This document shows, one piece after another, positions 48,925 to 51,894 of a stretch of DNA of 64,000 nt. The DNA is taken from the NCBI RefSeq assembly GCF_900177615.1, contig NZ_FXAP01000004.1, forward strand, positions 434,001-498,000, read 5' to 3'. Numbering within the stretch: the first letter of the stretch is position 1; each line of letters opens with the position of its first letter. Both the position numbers and the translations under genes were made by a program. The notes under the pieces are model-generated. The model was not told the origin of the DNA. It searched no databases and saw nothing but the letters and a program-made list of their open reading frames with translations. The DNA is from Plantibacter flavus. GTDB lineage: Bacteria > Actinomycetota > Actinomycetes > Actinomycetales > Microbacteriaceae.

Positions 48925-49353
48925 CTACGCGAGGTCGGCGTGCTGGGCCAGGTCCTCATGCTGCGCGACGAACGCCCGGGCCAGGCGCTTCGTGACGCCG
49001 AGTTCCGCGACGAGATGCTCGAGGTCCGGTGCCCAACGCGCGATGGCCCGGAACTCGTCGAGGTCGATGAGGTTCGACGCGGCGAAGCGGTCGGCCTGCA
49101 CCTCGTGCTTCGGCCTGTCGTCCTCGTGGCCGAGCACGCAGTGCGCGATGCCGTGGGCGAGGGCGTTCCGCCGGTGGACGGACCGGAGCGACTCCTGGAT
49201 GACGATCGTGTGCGCGGACGGCAGCCAGCGCTCATGGGAGACCCGCAGGGGCCGGAAGATCACCGCGAGACCGAGCTCCTCCGCGTGCGCATACGGGTCG
49301 TAGGCGCGCCCGCGCTCACGGGGCTTCCGGCTCGGGTTGCTCCAGTTCTCCAT
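48925..49353 (-). CDS. ImmA/IrrE-like protein with a degenerate metal site
   Basis: A 142-residue protein with the phage ImmA/IrrE layout: YDPYAHAEELGLAVIFRPL at the start, IVIQESLRSVHRRNALAHGIAH in the middle and LGHEDDRPKHEVQADRFAA after it. The zinc motif HExxH reads HGIAH: the catalytic Glu is Gly, so proteolysis is doubtful. In mobile elements ImmA cleaves the XRE repressor during induction; here the XRE gene lies upstream and overlaps by 38 bp. It may now act as a non-catalytic partner of the repressor, or be decaying. ATG 49353 is the best start. Confidence 0.78.
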   Translation of the reverse strand: MENWSNPSRKPRERGRAYDPYAHAEELGLAVIFRPLRVSHERWLPSAHTIVIQESLRSVHRRNALAHGIAHCVLGHEDDRPKHEVQADRFAASNLIDLDEFRAIARWAPDLEHLVAELGVTKRLARAFVAQHEDLAQHADLA

Positions 49354-49759
49354 CGGTGATTGCCGCCCCACGTTCCCCCTCCAACTGCTCCGTCGTCCAC
49401 GACGCAGCTTCCCTCTGCCGGCGTCTGCGATCCAGCTCGTCATTCGTAGCAGTGGTGTCCGACACGGGAGCCACGCGCTCGTCGTCGCTCGCTTGCAGTT
49501 CGGCCTCGATCCGACTCATCCCCCCGACCGCTTGCAGGGCGTCGGCCAGGAGGCGCACCGGATCGGCGCCGGTCGCCGCGCAGAGCGTGACGAACGTCGG
49601 GCCACTGATCTCGCTGCGACCGGCGAGGACACGTTGCAGGGTCGTCGGACTCATCCCCGTCGCCTCAGCCAGGGCGCGCTGATTCATGCGTCGCCGCTTG
49701 TAGGCGGCGACGAGTTCGTCCGCCAACGCCTGATTGACCATCGCCTCTGCTGCGTTCAC
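49316..49759 (-). CDS. XRE-family repressor
   Basis: A 147-residue protein with an XRE helix-turn-helix at about residues 11-70 (MNQRALAEATGMSPTTLQRVLAGRSEISG) and an acidic, charged C-terminal tail that could meet the ImmA-like partner. The start is GTG 49759, 6 nt behind TACGAT, so the message is leaderless as for many phage repressors. It is divergent from the holin-like gene; two 11-bp direct repeats 21 bp apart lie between them. Probable repressor of the lysis-like genes. Confidence 0.85.
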   Translation of the reverse strand: MNAAEAMVNQALADELVAAYKRRRMNQRALAEATGMSPTTLQRVLAGRSEISGPTFVTLCAATGADPVRLLADALQAVGGMSRIEAELQASDDERVAPVSDTTATNDELDRRRRQREAASWTTEQLEGERGAAITDGELEQPEPEAP

Positions 49760-49765
49760 GTTCCG

Positions 49766-49805
49766 ATCGTAGCCAGAAACCCTGTCGTGAACGGCAGAAA
49801 ACCTG
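49766..49805. promoter_or_regulatory. XRE promoter and candidate operator pair
   Basis: TACGAT (49771-49766, minus strand) is the XRE -10 box. CAGAAACCCTG (49774-49784) and CAGAAAACCTG (49795-49805) are direct repeats exactly 21 bp apart, two helical turns. A TATAGT box at 49818-49823 reads toward the holin-like gene. Confidence 0.55.
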
Positions 49806-49913
49806 CCTCCTGCGCTCTATAGTGTCACCTCCGACCTGAATGATGCCAGATCAGACAACTTCTGGAAACCATCCAGGTCGTCCATCACCACCCACGACGC
49901 CTGAGGAGGCACT

Positions 49914-50282
49914 ATGACCGAACACCGGACATCACCGGAACCAGCGACACCACCACCCGTCCCGTTTCCGGCACAGCGGATCATCCGCACCGTGATCCAG
50001 ACGACGGCGGCCGTGATCTTGAGCTCGGCGGCCTGCGTCACGACTGCGAGCATCATCGCGCCACAGCTCCTGGAGGCGATTCGGGAACTCCTCCCGGACG
50101 ACGTCTACGCCTGGGCGGCGGCGGCCGTGGCCACGACGGCGGCGATCGCCGCAGCACTGGCCCGGATCATGGCGATCCCCGGCGTGAACGGGTTCCTGAC
50201 CAGACTGAGCGCAGGCTCGACACCTCGCCATGCTCGACTCGATTCGGATGCTGAATCTGCCTCTGAAGAAAGAATTTCATGA
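49914..50282 (+). CDS. Holin-like small membrane protein
   Basis: A 122-residue protein with a Pro/Thr-rich N-terminus, two predicted membrane spans (about residues 27-52 and 66-86) and a charged C-terminus rich in Ser/Asp/Glu. Layout and phrases such as RIIRTVIQTTAAVI and RIMAIPGVNGFL resemble actinophage holins. AGGAGG precedes the ATG. Two M23 peptidases that lack signal peptides follow on the same strand, so it could provide their route across the membrane. Holin assignment is by architecture, not proof. Confidence 0.65.
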   Translation: MTEHRTSPEPATPPPVPFPAQRIIRTVIQTTAAVILSSAACVTTASIIAPQLLEAIRELLPDDVYAWAAAAVATTAAIAAALARIMAIPGVNGFLTRLSAGSTPRHARLDSDAESASEERIS

Positions 50283-50395
50283 TGAATAGGCAAATTGAAC
50301 TGGACAAAACGACGAGATCGTCGTAGAGTCTCTCTCGAACACACGTTCGAATTTCGGAGGACACTTCCTCCACGAAACAACAGATTGGAGGCAGA

Positions 50396-51046
50396 GTGGC
50401 GCTCAACAACTACGTGCTGAACGGCCCGTCCACGGTGATCGCGGACGACAACCGCGACCCCTACGTGTCCTGGCAGAACCACCTCGACCGGACCGGCCGA
50501 GGCGGGGTCGACCTCGTCGCCGCTGTGGGCACCCCGGTGCTCGCACCCACGCCCGGAACCATGAACTGGGTTCCGAACGACGGATCAGCGGGCAACTCGT
50601 GCCGCTTCAACCATGACCAGAACCCCGGATGGGCCGATGTGTTCTCGCACCTCGACCGATACGTCGGGAGCAACGGTCAGCACTTCAACCAGGGCGACAT
50701 CATCGCCTATTCGGGCAACACGGGAGGCGTGCCTCAGCACCTCCACCGTCACCTGCTCGACCCCTCTGGCAGCCGCCAGAACCCGTGGAGCTACTTCGGC
50801 TCCGCGAACCCATCCACAAACACAGGAGAACAACTCGTGAAGATCATCCGTCAGGGACAGTCCGGCTACGTCTGGCAGGGCAAGCAGACCTTCGGCGCCA
50901 TGGCGCTCGTCGGCCCCGGCTACGTCCGCTACATCCCCGCACCGGCCGTCTACGACGCCCTGGTGCCGACCTACGGCTCGTTCGTGAACCTCACGGGCGA
51001 CCAGTTCTACACCACCATCCGGGAGCTCACGTCGAACCAGGCGTAG
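50396..51046 (+). CDS. M23-like peptidase with an altered zinc site, endolysin-like
   Basis: A 216-residue protein with an M23 (LytM) domain at about residues 15-140 and a C-terminal region of about 70 residues (QSGYVWQGKQTFGAMALVGP onward) of a phage-like type. The M23 His-x-Gly-x-Asp motif reads RGGVD (the first zinc His is Arg), while DVFSHLD and HLHRH keep other ligands; activity is doubtful. There is no signal peptide. GTG 50396 follows TTGGAGG. The region just upstream (50280-50395) is clearly AT-richer than the rest, suggesting transfer. Confidence 0.72.
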   Translation: MALNNYVLNGPSTVIADDNRDPYVSWQNHLDRTGRGGVDLVAAVGTPVLAPTPGTMNWVPNDGSAGNSCRFNHDQNPGWADVFSHLDRYVGSNGQHFNQGDIIAYSGNTGGVPQHLHRHLLDPSGSRQNPWSYFGSANPSTNTGEQLVKIIRQGQSGYVWQGKQTFGAMALVGPGYVRYIPAPAVYDALVPTYGSFVNLTGDQFYTTIRELTSNQA

Positions 51047-51094
51047 CGCACCGGTGACCTCGAGTCACCACTGACCGGCAACGGAGAACGGCCT

Positions 51095-51117
51095 CCGAGC
51101 AGACCGTAACTGCTCGG
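51095..51117 (+). terminator. Terminator after the first M23 gene
   Basis: CCGAGCAG, loop ACCGTAA, CTGCTCGG, then GGG. The 18 bases CCGAGCAGACCGTAACTG recur exactly after the second M23 gene. Confidence 0.65.
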
Positions 51118-51149
51118 GGGCCCACCCTCCGCGCCAGGAAAGGAGCCAC

Positions 51150-51839
51150 ATGGTCCTCCGCTATCAACACCCGTTCCCGCAGATGGATCTGGCCGACGGC
51201 TGGGGTTCGATGGCAGGAGGACGATCCCAACCGCACCGCGGGTTGGACTACCAGCCCGGCGCCGATGCCGCGATCCCGGCGGTCGCAGCCGGCGTCGTCT
51301 CCGCCAACCGCTGGAGCGACGCGCTCGGCAACGTCCTGGTCATCGCCCACCCCGACGGCATGTACTCGGGCTACTGCCACCTGGCGGCCGCCTCACCGCA
51401 CCAGGTCGGTGCGGCGATCGTCCGCGGTGAACCCGTCGGCGTCGTCGGGAACACCGGGTCCGCTTCCAGCGGAGCCCATCTGCATCTCACCATCACCTTC
51501 ACCGCGGACGGCACATGGAACAACGCCGACATCGGAGTCACGACCGATCCGTATCCGTTCATCAACGCTCGCCTGAACGGCGACGACCCGGGACACCCAT
51601 TCAAGGAGTCAGACATGCCCAAGATCATCAGCGTGCCGGCCGGCACCATCGCGCTCGTCACCGAGACCTTCGGGACGAAGTACACCTCGCCCGACGGCGG
51701 GCAGGGGTTCTCCATCGCCGCGAACACGCAGGCCTACGGTCAGGTCAGCGGCTTGACCGAAGACCAGGTCACCACGCTGGTCGCGGAGGCGAACGCACGA
51801 GGTCAGCATTTCGCCGAACTCGTCGCGGGGCTGCGGTAG
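51150..51839 (+). CDS. M23 peptidase, endolysin-like
   Basis: A 229-residue protein with an intact M23 zinc site: PHRGLDYQ (His and Asp), GYCHLAAAS and SGAHLHLTIT (H-x-H). Domain at about residues 1-145; a C-terminal region of about 75 residues (MPKIISVPAGTIALVTETFG onward) resembles the appended domain of its neighbour in position only. No signal peptide is present. AAAGGAG precedes the ATG. It probably cuts cross-links in peptidoglycan and needs lysis or the holin-like protein to reach them. Confidence 0.8.
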   Translation: MVLRYQHPFPQMDLADGWGSMAGGRSQPHRGLDYQPGADAAIPAVAAGVVSANRWSDALGNVLVIAHPDGMYSGYCHLAAASPHQVGAAIVRGEPVGVVGNTGSASSGAHLHLTITFTADGTWNNADIGVTTDPYPFINARLNGDDPGHPFKESDMPKIISVPAGTIALVTETFGTKYTSPDGGQGFSIAANTQAYGQVSGLTEDQVTTLVAEANARGQHFAELVAGLR

Positions 51840-51851
51840 CCGCACGGGCGT

Positions 51852-51894
51852 GAGGAAGCCCCCGAGCAGACCGTAACTGTTCGGGGGCTTCCTC
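51852..51894 (+). terminator. Terminator after the second M23 gene
   Basis: An 18-bp stem (GAGGAAGCCCCCGAGCAG and complement, one mismatch) with loop ACCGTAA. The loop and left arm equal those of the terminator after the first M23 gene, so the gene-plus-terminator unit may be a duplication. Confidence 0.75.

Follow-up and report, generated by a model that had tools for sequence, protein, structure and literature searches.

A stand-alone lysin island built from phage-like genes, with a putative LexA box, in Plantibacter

We analysed a window of 64 kb from the genome of Plantibacter flavus, a soil bacterium associated with plants (G000; 4.30 Mb in 11 contigs), in which five phage-like genes form a compact island at positions 48925–51894, bordered on both sides by host genes. 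The original prediction for this DNA had described the five genes as a divergent layout, and all of them lie at the coordinates it gave with matching Pfam or PHROG families. On the minus strand are an ImmA/IrrE-like gene of the M78 family (48925–49353; Pfam M78, E=1.5e-11; likely start ATG at 49353) and an XRE/Cro repressor gene (49316–49759; HTH_3, 5e-8; PHROG 4583, 6e-10). Divergent from these, on the plus strand, are a holin-like gene (49914–50282; PHROG 4316 family, E=1.9e-14) and two M23 endopeptidase genes, M23a (50396–51046; Pfam M23, 1.1e-13) and M23b (51150–51839; Pfam M23, 7.6e-19), each encoding a catalytic part and a C-terminal domain. The finer predictions for these genes were borne out as well: the XRE and ImmA genes overlap (by 38 nucleotides), as in ImmR/ImmA pairs, where an XRE gene overlaps an M78 gene; a leaderless XRE transcript fits with a TACGAT −10-like site directly before the GTG, recognised by eye; the holin-like protein has two hydrophobic spans; and neither M23 protein has a strongly hydrophobic stretch within its first 60 residues, consistent with a lack of signal peptides. 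The left flank carries a DUF3253 gene and a phosphoglycerate-mutase-like gene, the right flank a short-chain dehydrogenase (SDR) gene and a MerR-like gene.

The surroundings are not those of a prophage. A PHROGs scan of the 56 other open reading frames of the window matched 41 families, and among the 25 of these listed there is no head, tail, terminase or integrase family, in agreement with the predicted absence of phage structural genes. The scan and the gene context together place no integrase, head, tail or terminase gene nearby, and by the same scan the locus holds neither the tail nor the head genes of a tailocin or gene transfer agent. A search of the genus for tail genes with PF10145 was insensitive; because it overlooked the known tape measure gene of a prophage in G000 (L075), we do not use its zero as evidence. 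There is no second copy of the island in G000, no match among plasmids, and no obvious attachment-site repeat at the island ends; PADLOC models returned weak similarities for ImmA and XRE and nothing else.

The original prediction had proposed a search for conserved co-occurrence of the five genes without phage genes, and such conservation was found among seven Plantibacter species genomes (G000–G006). Four of them, G000, G001, G002 (VKM Ac-1784) and G006 (ME-Dv--P-122b), keep the island at the identical site. In the other island-bearing species XRE and ImmA are 93–100% identical to the G000 proteins, the holin 88–94% and M23b 86–93%. G003 carries a deletion scar that joins ImmA codon 104 directly to M23b codon 110, and in G004 and G005, which have no island, the flanking genes lie ~85 bp apart and are more diverged. 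Pairwise ratios of nonsynonymous to synonymous substitution (dN/dS, NG86 method) within the four island-bearing species were 0.03–0.11 for ImmA, 0–0.20 for XRE, 0.11–0.15 for the holin and 0.12–0.25 for M23b, comparable to those of neighbouring genes. By these values the common island genes are under purifying selection in the four species (dN/dS 0–0.25).

The spacer ahead of M23a (50280–50395) has a G+C content of 46.9% compared to 69.2% for the window, with 0.1% of 113-bp windows as low. The low value is real, but the spacer is a conserved promoter and operator region, and the acquisition that had been read from its composition is not supported. It contains a sigma-70-like promoter, TGGACA-17-TAGAGT (50301–50329, plus strand; one found, 0.2 expected), and just 3' of the −10 element a perfect 16 bp palindrome of the LexA/SOS type, TCGAACACACGTTCGA (50335–50350). 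All 16 columns of this palindrome are invariant across the four species, compared with 61 of 76 in its surroundings. The pattern TCGAACNNNNGTTCGA has just six matches in the 4.3 Mb of G000 and the reversed control pattern none, and in the same genome lexA and recA have TCGAACAGATGTTTGT and TAGAACGGATGTTCGA upstream. TCGAACACACGTTCGA fits these boxes as well as the Streptomyces LexA motif, tCGAAC-N4-GNNCGa (PMC9380542). Because of its invariance and rarity, and its agreement with the lexA and recA boxes and with the Streptomyces motif, it appears to be a LexA box located at the M23 promoter, the position expected of a LexA regulon member. Exact SOS-box matches at L068 and L069 were set aside as probably due to chance, being off the RNRY centre and in or near unrelated coding sequence. 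Of the prophages and other islands checked, none had a box like that of the Plantibacter island beside its lysin genes. Elsewhere in G000, two genes for small proteins of 91 and 107 amino acids without a Pfam match (L084:3385–3660 and L087:3380–3703, both on the minus strand, on contigs C3 and C10) have a perfect LexA-type box 3–4 bp ahead of the likely start codon; in L075, L079 and L080, look-alikes adjoin tail or lysis genes of prophages.

The holin-like gene has a control region of its own. Between it and the XRE gene lies a pair of CAGAAANCCTG sites 21 bp apart (49774–49784 and 49795–49805), the sole two matches in the window (0.02 expected). The repeats are conserved in the four species and are probably the XRE operators. 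Beyond them TATAGT (49818–49823, plus strand), picked out by eye and conserved in four species, is a candidate −10 element of the holin promoter. A promoter palindrome, ACGACGA-GA-TCGTCGT, was dropped as an operator because it is unconserved in sister species.

Both M23 proteins have the catalytic domain with metal ligands of phage M23 endolysins; the first His is offset in M23a, as it is in the phage relatives of M23a. The catalytic part of M23b was modelled at ~90 pLDDT, with the lysostaphin catalytic domain as its nearest solved fold. The M23 genes are polymorphic, with two or three per island-bearing genome, G006 having an extra M23b-like gene. M23a has no close counterpart at the first position in sister species, where an M23b-like gene is found instead, and DNA homology between G000 and the sister species ends at ~50370, ahead of the first M23 gene, to restart at the hairpin near 51091. 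As read from this alignment, M23a is a cassette swapped in between the conserved promoter and the hairpin. Among G001, G002 and G006 the catalytic parts of the first cassette are 84–94% identical, and the C-terminal parts share no similarity at E<0.01.

Where the catalytic and C-terminal parts meet, every M23 gene of Plantibacter carries a Shine-Dalgarno sequence and an in-frame start codon, and in most, M23a included, this is the sole in-frame start so equipped. The C-terminal domain alone is therefore predicted as a second product of M23a (50837–51046, plus strand; AGGAG/GTG) and of M23b (51615–51839, plus strand; AAGGAG/ATG), the internal ribosome-binding site and start being those of two-polypeptide endolysin genes, which phages of Gram-positive bacteria often carry (PMC9430671). 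The C-terminal domain of M23b recurs in a prophage lysin, there joined to an unrelated catalytic domain (L146; 51% identical, behind AAGGAG...ATG), and in G103 (L197; 61% identical). A hairpin and probable terminator follows each M23 gene (51090–51122, folding z=−5.4, and 51852–51894, z=−6.9; both plus strand); the two are 94% identical and have the loop ACCGTAA in common (51091–51121 and 51858–51888). The second is conserved in all four island-bearing species and also in the G003 scar, and a hairpin core is common to the sister islands and that scar.

In ImmA, an alignment with 15 relatives shows HGIAH in place of the M78 HEXXH in all four species, with both zinc histidines and the downstream Glu retained. 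The Glu-to-Gly change is also found in the viral proteins L279, L280 (HGVGH), L281 and L282, and HE is kept in L284 and L285; the Gly-bearing branch of these phage ImmA-like proteins (among L279–L285) lies beside an integrase gene and, where seen, an XRE gene. As it is under purifying selection, ImmA is probably functional. In our view HGIAH weakens the case for calling the pair an ImmR/ImmA switch; it leaves untouched the proposal that XRE, which has a conserved C-terminal tail, and ImmA regulate the holin. A conserved ImmA without the catalytic glutamate makes it testable whether this switch family works without proteolysis. The glutamate change, the LexA box, the internal starts and the paired hairpins all go beyond the original prediction.

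Homology suggests that the island genes derive from temperate actinophage genes, for M23a, the holin and the XRE-ImmA pair in particular. A single-sequence scan of IMG/VR matched M23a, the holin and ImmA, and gave no match for M23b or XRE. The match of M23a, at 58% identity, is a lysin of the 43-kb viral contig L198, and its neighbours there are small membrane proteins and a GH25-like lysin. The holin family occurs in 80 viral contigs, at least 48 of which encode a lysin no more than 3 kb away from it, and in Curtobacterium phage Barebow a homologue directly follows the endolysin gene; a small membrane-spanning protein encoded beside an endolysin in phages is what a holin would be. ImmA is 53–63% identical to viral-contig proteins mostly located beside an integrase, which the island lacks, and an XRE gene precedes the ImmA relative in viral contigs, most clearly in L280 (XRE 36% identical) and L285. 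G000 itself carries a siphoprophage (L075; contig C10, 335000–354000) with portal, head protease, capsid, tape measure, M23 lysin and holin homologue. Its M23 lysin resembles M23a and its holin that of the island, and a siphoprophage of this type is also present in G003 (L076), where the island is lost. For the majority of the other genomes, the holin homologue is part of a prophage.

Separate islands occur in other Microbacteriaceae. G023, of another genus, has an analogous island between host genes (L112, 9795–13939), in which XRE-ImmA is divergent from two small helix-turn-helix (HTH) genes, an M23 gene, a second lysin-like gene, a membrane/coil protein gene and a holin gene. G103 has a partial counterpart, XRE-ImmA divergent from HTH and M23 genes (L195, 7758–10130), and a separate holin/M23 island (L197). 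Neither the G023 nor the G103 islands contain an SOS box at up to one mismatch. M23 domains related to those of the island and bearing signal peptides like those of the twin-arginine translocation (Tat) pathway are encoded in G266 and G083. Judging by these islands and domains, the family seems to have acquired phage lysins on more than one occasion. M23b-like enzymes with Tat-like signal peptides were observed at L189:5812–9500, L190:8648–10246 and L191:8561–9349; that of L191 keeps a phage-type C-terminal domain and internal start, and in L189 an M23a homologue lies beside the secreted enzyme. In two other genera, XRE-ImmA and lysis genes lie beside a dCTP deaminase gene (L112:9795–14962 and L113:3562–14361), with tail-spike-like genes in between in L113.

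We consider it fairly probable that the locus is a stand-alone, host-maintained, damage-linked lysin island made from temperate actinophage genes. Its location, selection, promoter box and cassette exchange can be read from the DNA; every functional step is our inference. LexA would keep the M23 operon off, and XRE, through its two tandem operators, would keep the holin and its own gene off. On DNA damage, removal of LexA would let full-length M23 enzymes and free C-terminal domains build up in the cytoplasm. Once XRE too is relieved, with ImmA either active despite its missing catalytic glutamate or no more than a partner, the holin would open the membrane, the cell would lyse and the enzymes would be released. 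Aimed by strain-specific wall-binding domains, the freed enzymes could then attack neighbours, a colicin-like logic assembled from phage lysis genes. If the locus is such an island, its use is a narrower matter. The swapping of C-terminal domains on a near-constant catalytic domain favours a targeting or antagonistic, bacteriocin-like role, which we put forward as a possibility short of an even chance; self-lysis as such (vesicles, extracellular DNA) is nearly as likely, there being no signal peptide and no immunity gene. Phage-triggered suicide is unlikely, and some other use more so. We regard as rather doubtful, taken as a whole, the more elaborate proposal that the locus is a polymorphic lysin weapon of a Gram-positive bacterium under LexA control, its conserved M23 catalytic domain being directed to new targets through swapped C-terminal domains that are also made separately, with independent islands in other Microbacteriaceae.

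Several observations weigh against a damage-linked lysin island. The C-terminal domains have no match at E<0.01 among sequenced phages and their structure models are of low confidence, so that they may be called wall-binding by position and analogy. M23a and M23b lack the signal peptide of a bacteriolysin, for which reason the enzymes would depend on the holin to leave the cell, and the holin is assigned by family and synteny, PHROG 4316 itself bearing the label of unknown function. The two M23 genes have no extra gene between them that might confer immunity, and none follows before the SDR gene. The HEXXH active site of ImmR/ImmA systems is missing; since ImmA is without its glutamate, XRE proteolysis by the usual chemistry is doubtful, which bears on the route of XRE relief. 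The hairpins fail the T-tract rule, and the selection estimates come from few comparisons, among four island-bearing species, with the simple NG86 method.

Several alternatives were weighed as well. The original prediction had offered either a domesticated lysis cassette or a decaying remnant, and the common site in four species, purifying selection, the conserved LexA-box promoter and the absence of phage genes around it favour the former. An inert prophage remnant that retained immunity and lysis ends by chance would account for phage homologues of all island parts and for the disappearance of the integrase found beside ImmA in phages, and G003 shows loss through one deletion. Decay is, however, visible in G003 alone: because dN/dS is low, a remnant is not supported in G000, G001, G002 and G006, whose intact reading frames, invariant LexA box and ongoing cassette exchange make this explanation quite improbable. 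Domesticated self-lysis only, by which damaged cells release vesicles, DNA or public goods without targeted killing, is a more tenable proposal, though in our judgement less likely than not. Sister species would have no obvious need of unrelated C-terminal domains on one catalytic domain, nor is the retention of two or three lysins easily explained, even though precedents exist in the damage-induced lysis and vesicle release by the maltocin endolysin of Stenotrophomonas (PMC13393414) and in the DLP12 lysis operon of E. coli, a domesticated module affecting vesicles (PMC7918800).

An anti-phage island, with XRE conferring repressor immunity and a damage trigger lysing infected cells early, draws on the XRE-ImmA pairs that close phage relatives carry in their lysogeny region and on CapH/CapP, an ImmRA-like pair that controls the cyclic-oligonucleotide-based anti-phage signalling system CBASS (PMC10233336). 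We find it improbable, as the PADLOC similarities are weak, the island has no defence genes and the swapping of C-terminal domains is left unexplained. That the island is a phage satellite or some small mobile element, and not resident at its locus, is very improbable: the compact divergent switch and operon of phage-like genes would suit one, but there is no integrase, replication or packaging gene, the site is constant, and neither a plasmid match nor a second genomic copy was found.

Lysis genes outside prophages are usually written off as debris. For the Plantibacter island, selection, a host-type DNA-damage promoter and C-terminal domain exchange indicate that function has been kept. If our preferred reading, a damage-linked lysin island, is correct, the implication is a small (3 kb), testable case of phage lysins turned into damage-induced weapons or altruistic lysis devices, with natural chimeras marking the points at which wall-binding specificity can be exchanged.

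Among known systems, zoocin A and lysostaphin, which are among the nearest solved fold or sequence matches, likewise join an M23 endopeptidase to a separate targeting domain, but are secreted with signal peptides; they are protected by immunity genes, of which the island has none. Colicin-type loci resemble it in combining a LexA-controlled toxic protein with a lysis protein. The island differs in being Gram-positive, in that the lysin itself would be the effector, and in having a separate holin repressor and no immunity gene. In the DLP12 operon of E. coli K-12 lysis genes were likewise kept by the host after phage function was lost, although that operon is a Gram-negative holin/endolysin/spannin set in a defective prophage, without M23 lysins and with no exchanged cassettes reported (PMC7918800). 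ImmR/ImmA of ICEBs1 and relatives (PMC10233336) share the XRE repressor gene beside a metalloprotease-like gene, whereas the island has HGIAH for HEXXH, a lysis operon as target, and no integrase or transfer genes. The prophage lysin LysL of Lactococcus lactis LAC460 kills strains other than its producer, to which its binding domain does not attach (PMC11219366); the island lysins, also prophage-derived by our reading, have a C-terminal domain that could similarly spare the producer and kill relatives. LysL is prophage-encoded with two N-terminal catalytic domains and demonstrated killing, whereas for the island enzymes killing is a prediction. The two-polypeptide phage M23 endolysins (PMC9430671) share with the island enzymes an M23 catalytic part, a variable C-terminal part, an internal ribosome-binding site and start at their boundary, and the absence of a signal peptide; the island sets itself apart from them by its location outside a phage, its LexA box, its two or three tandem genes and its exchanged cassettes.

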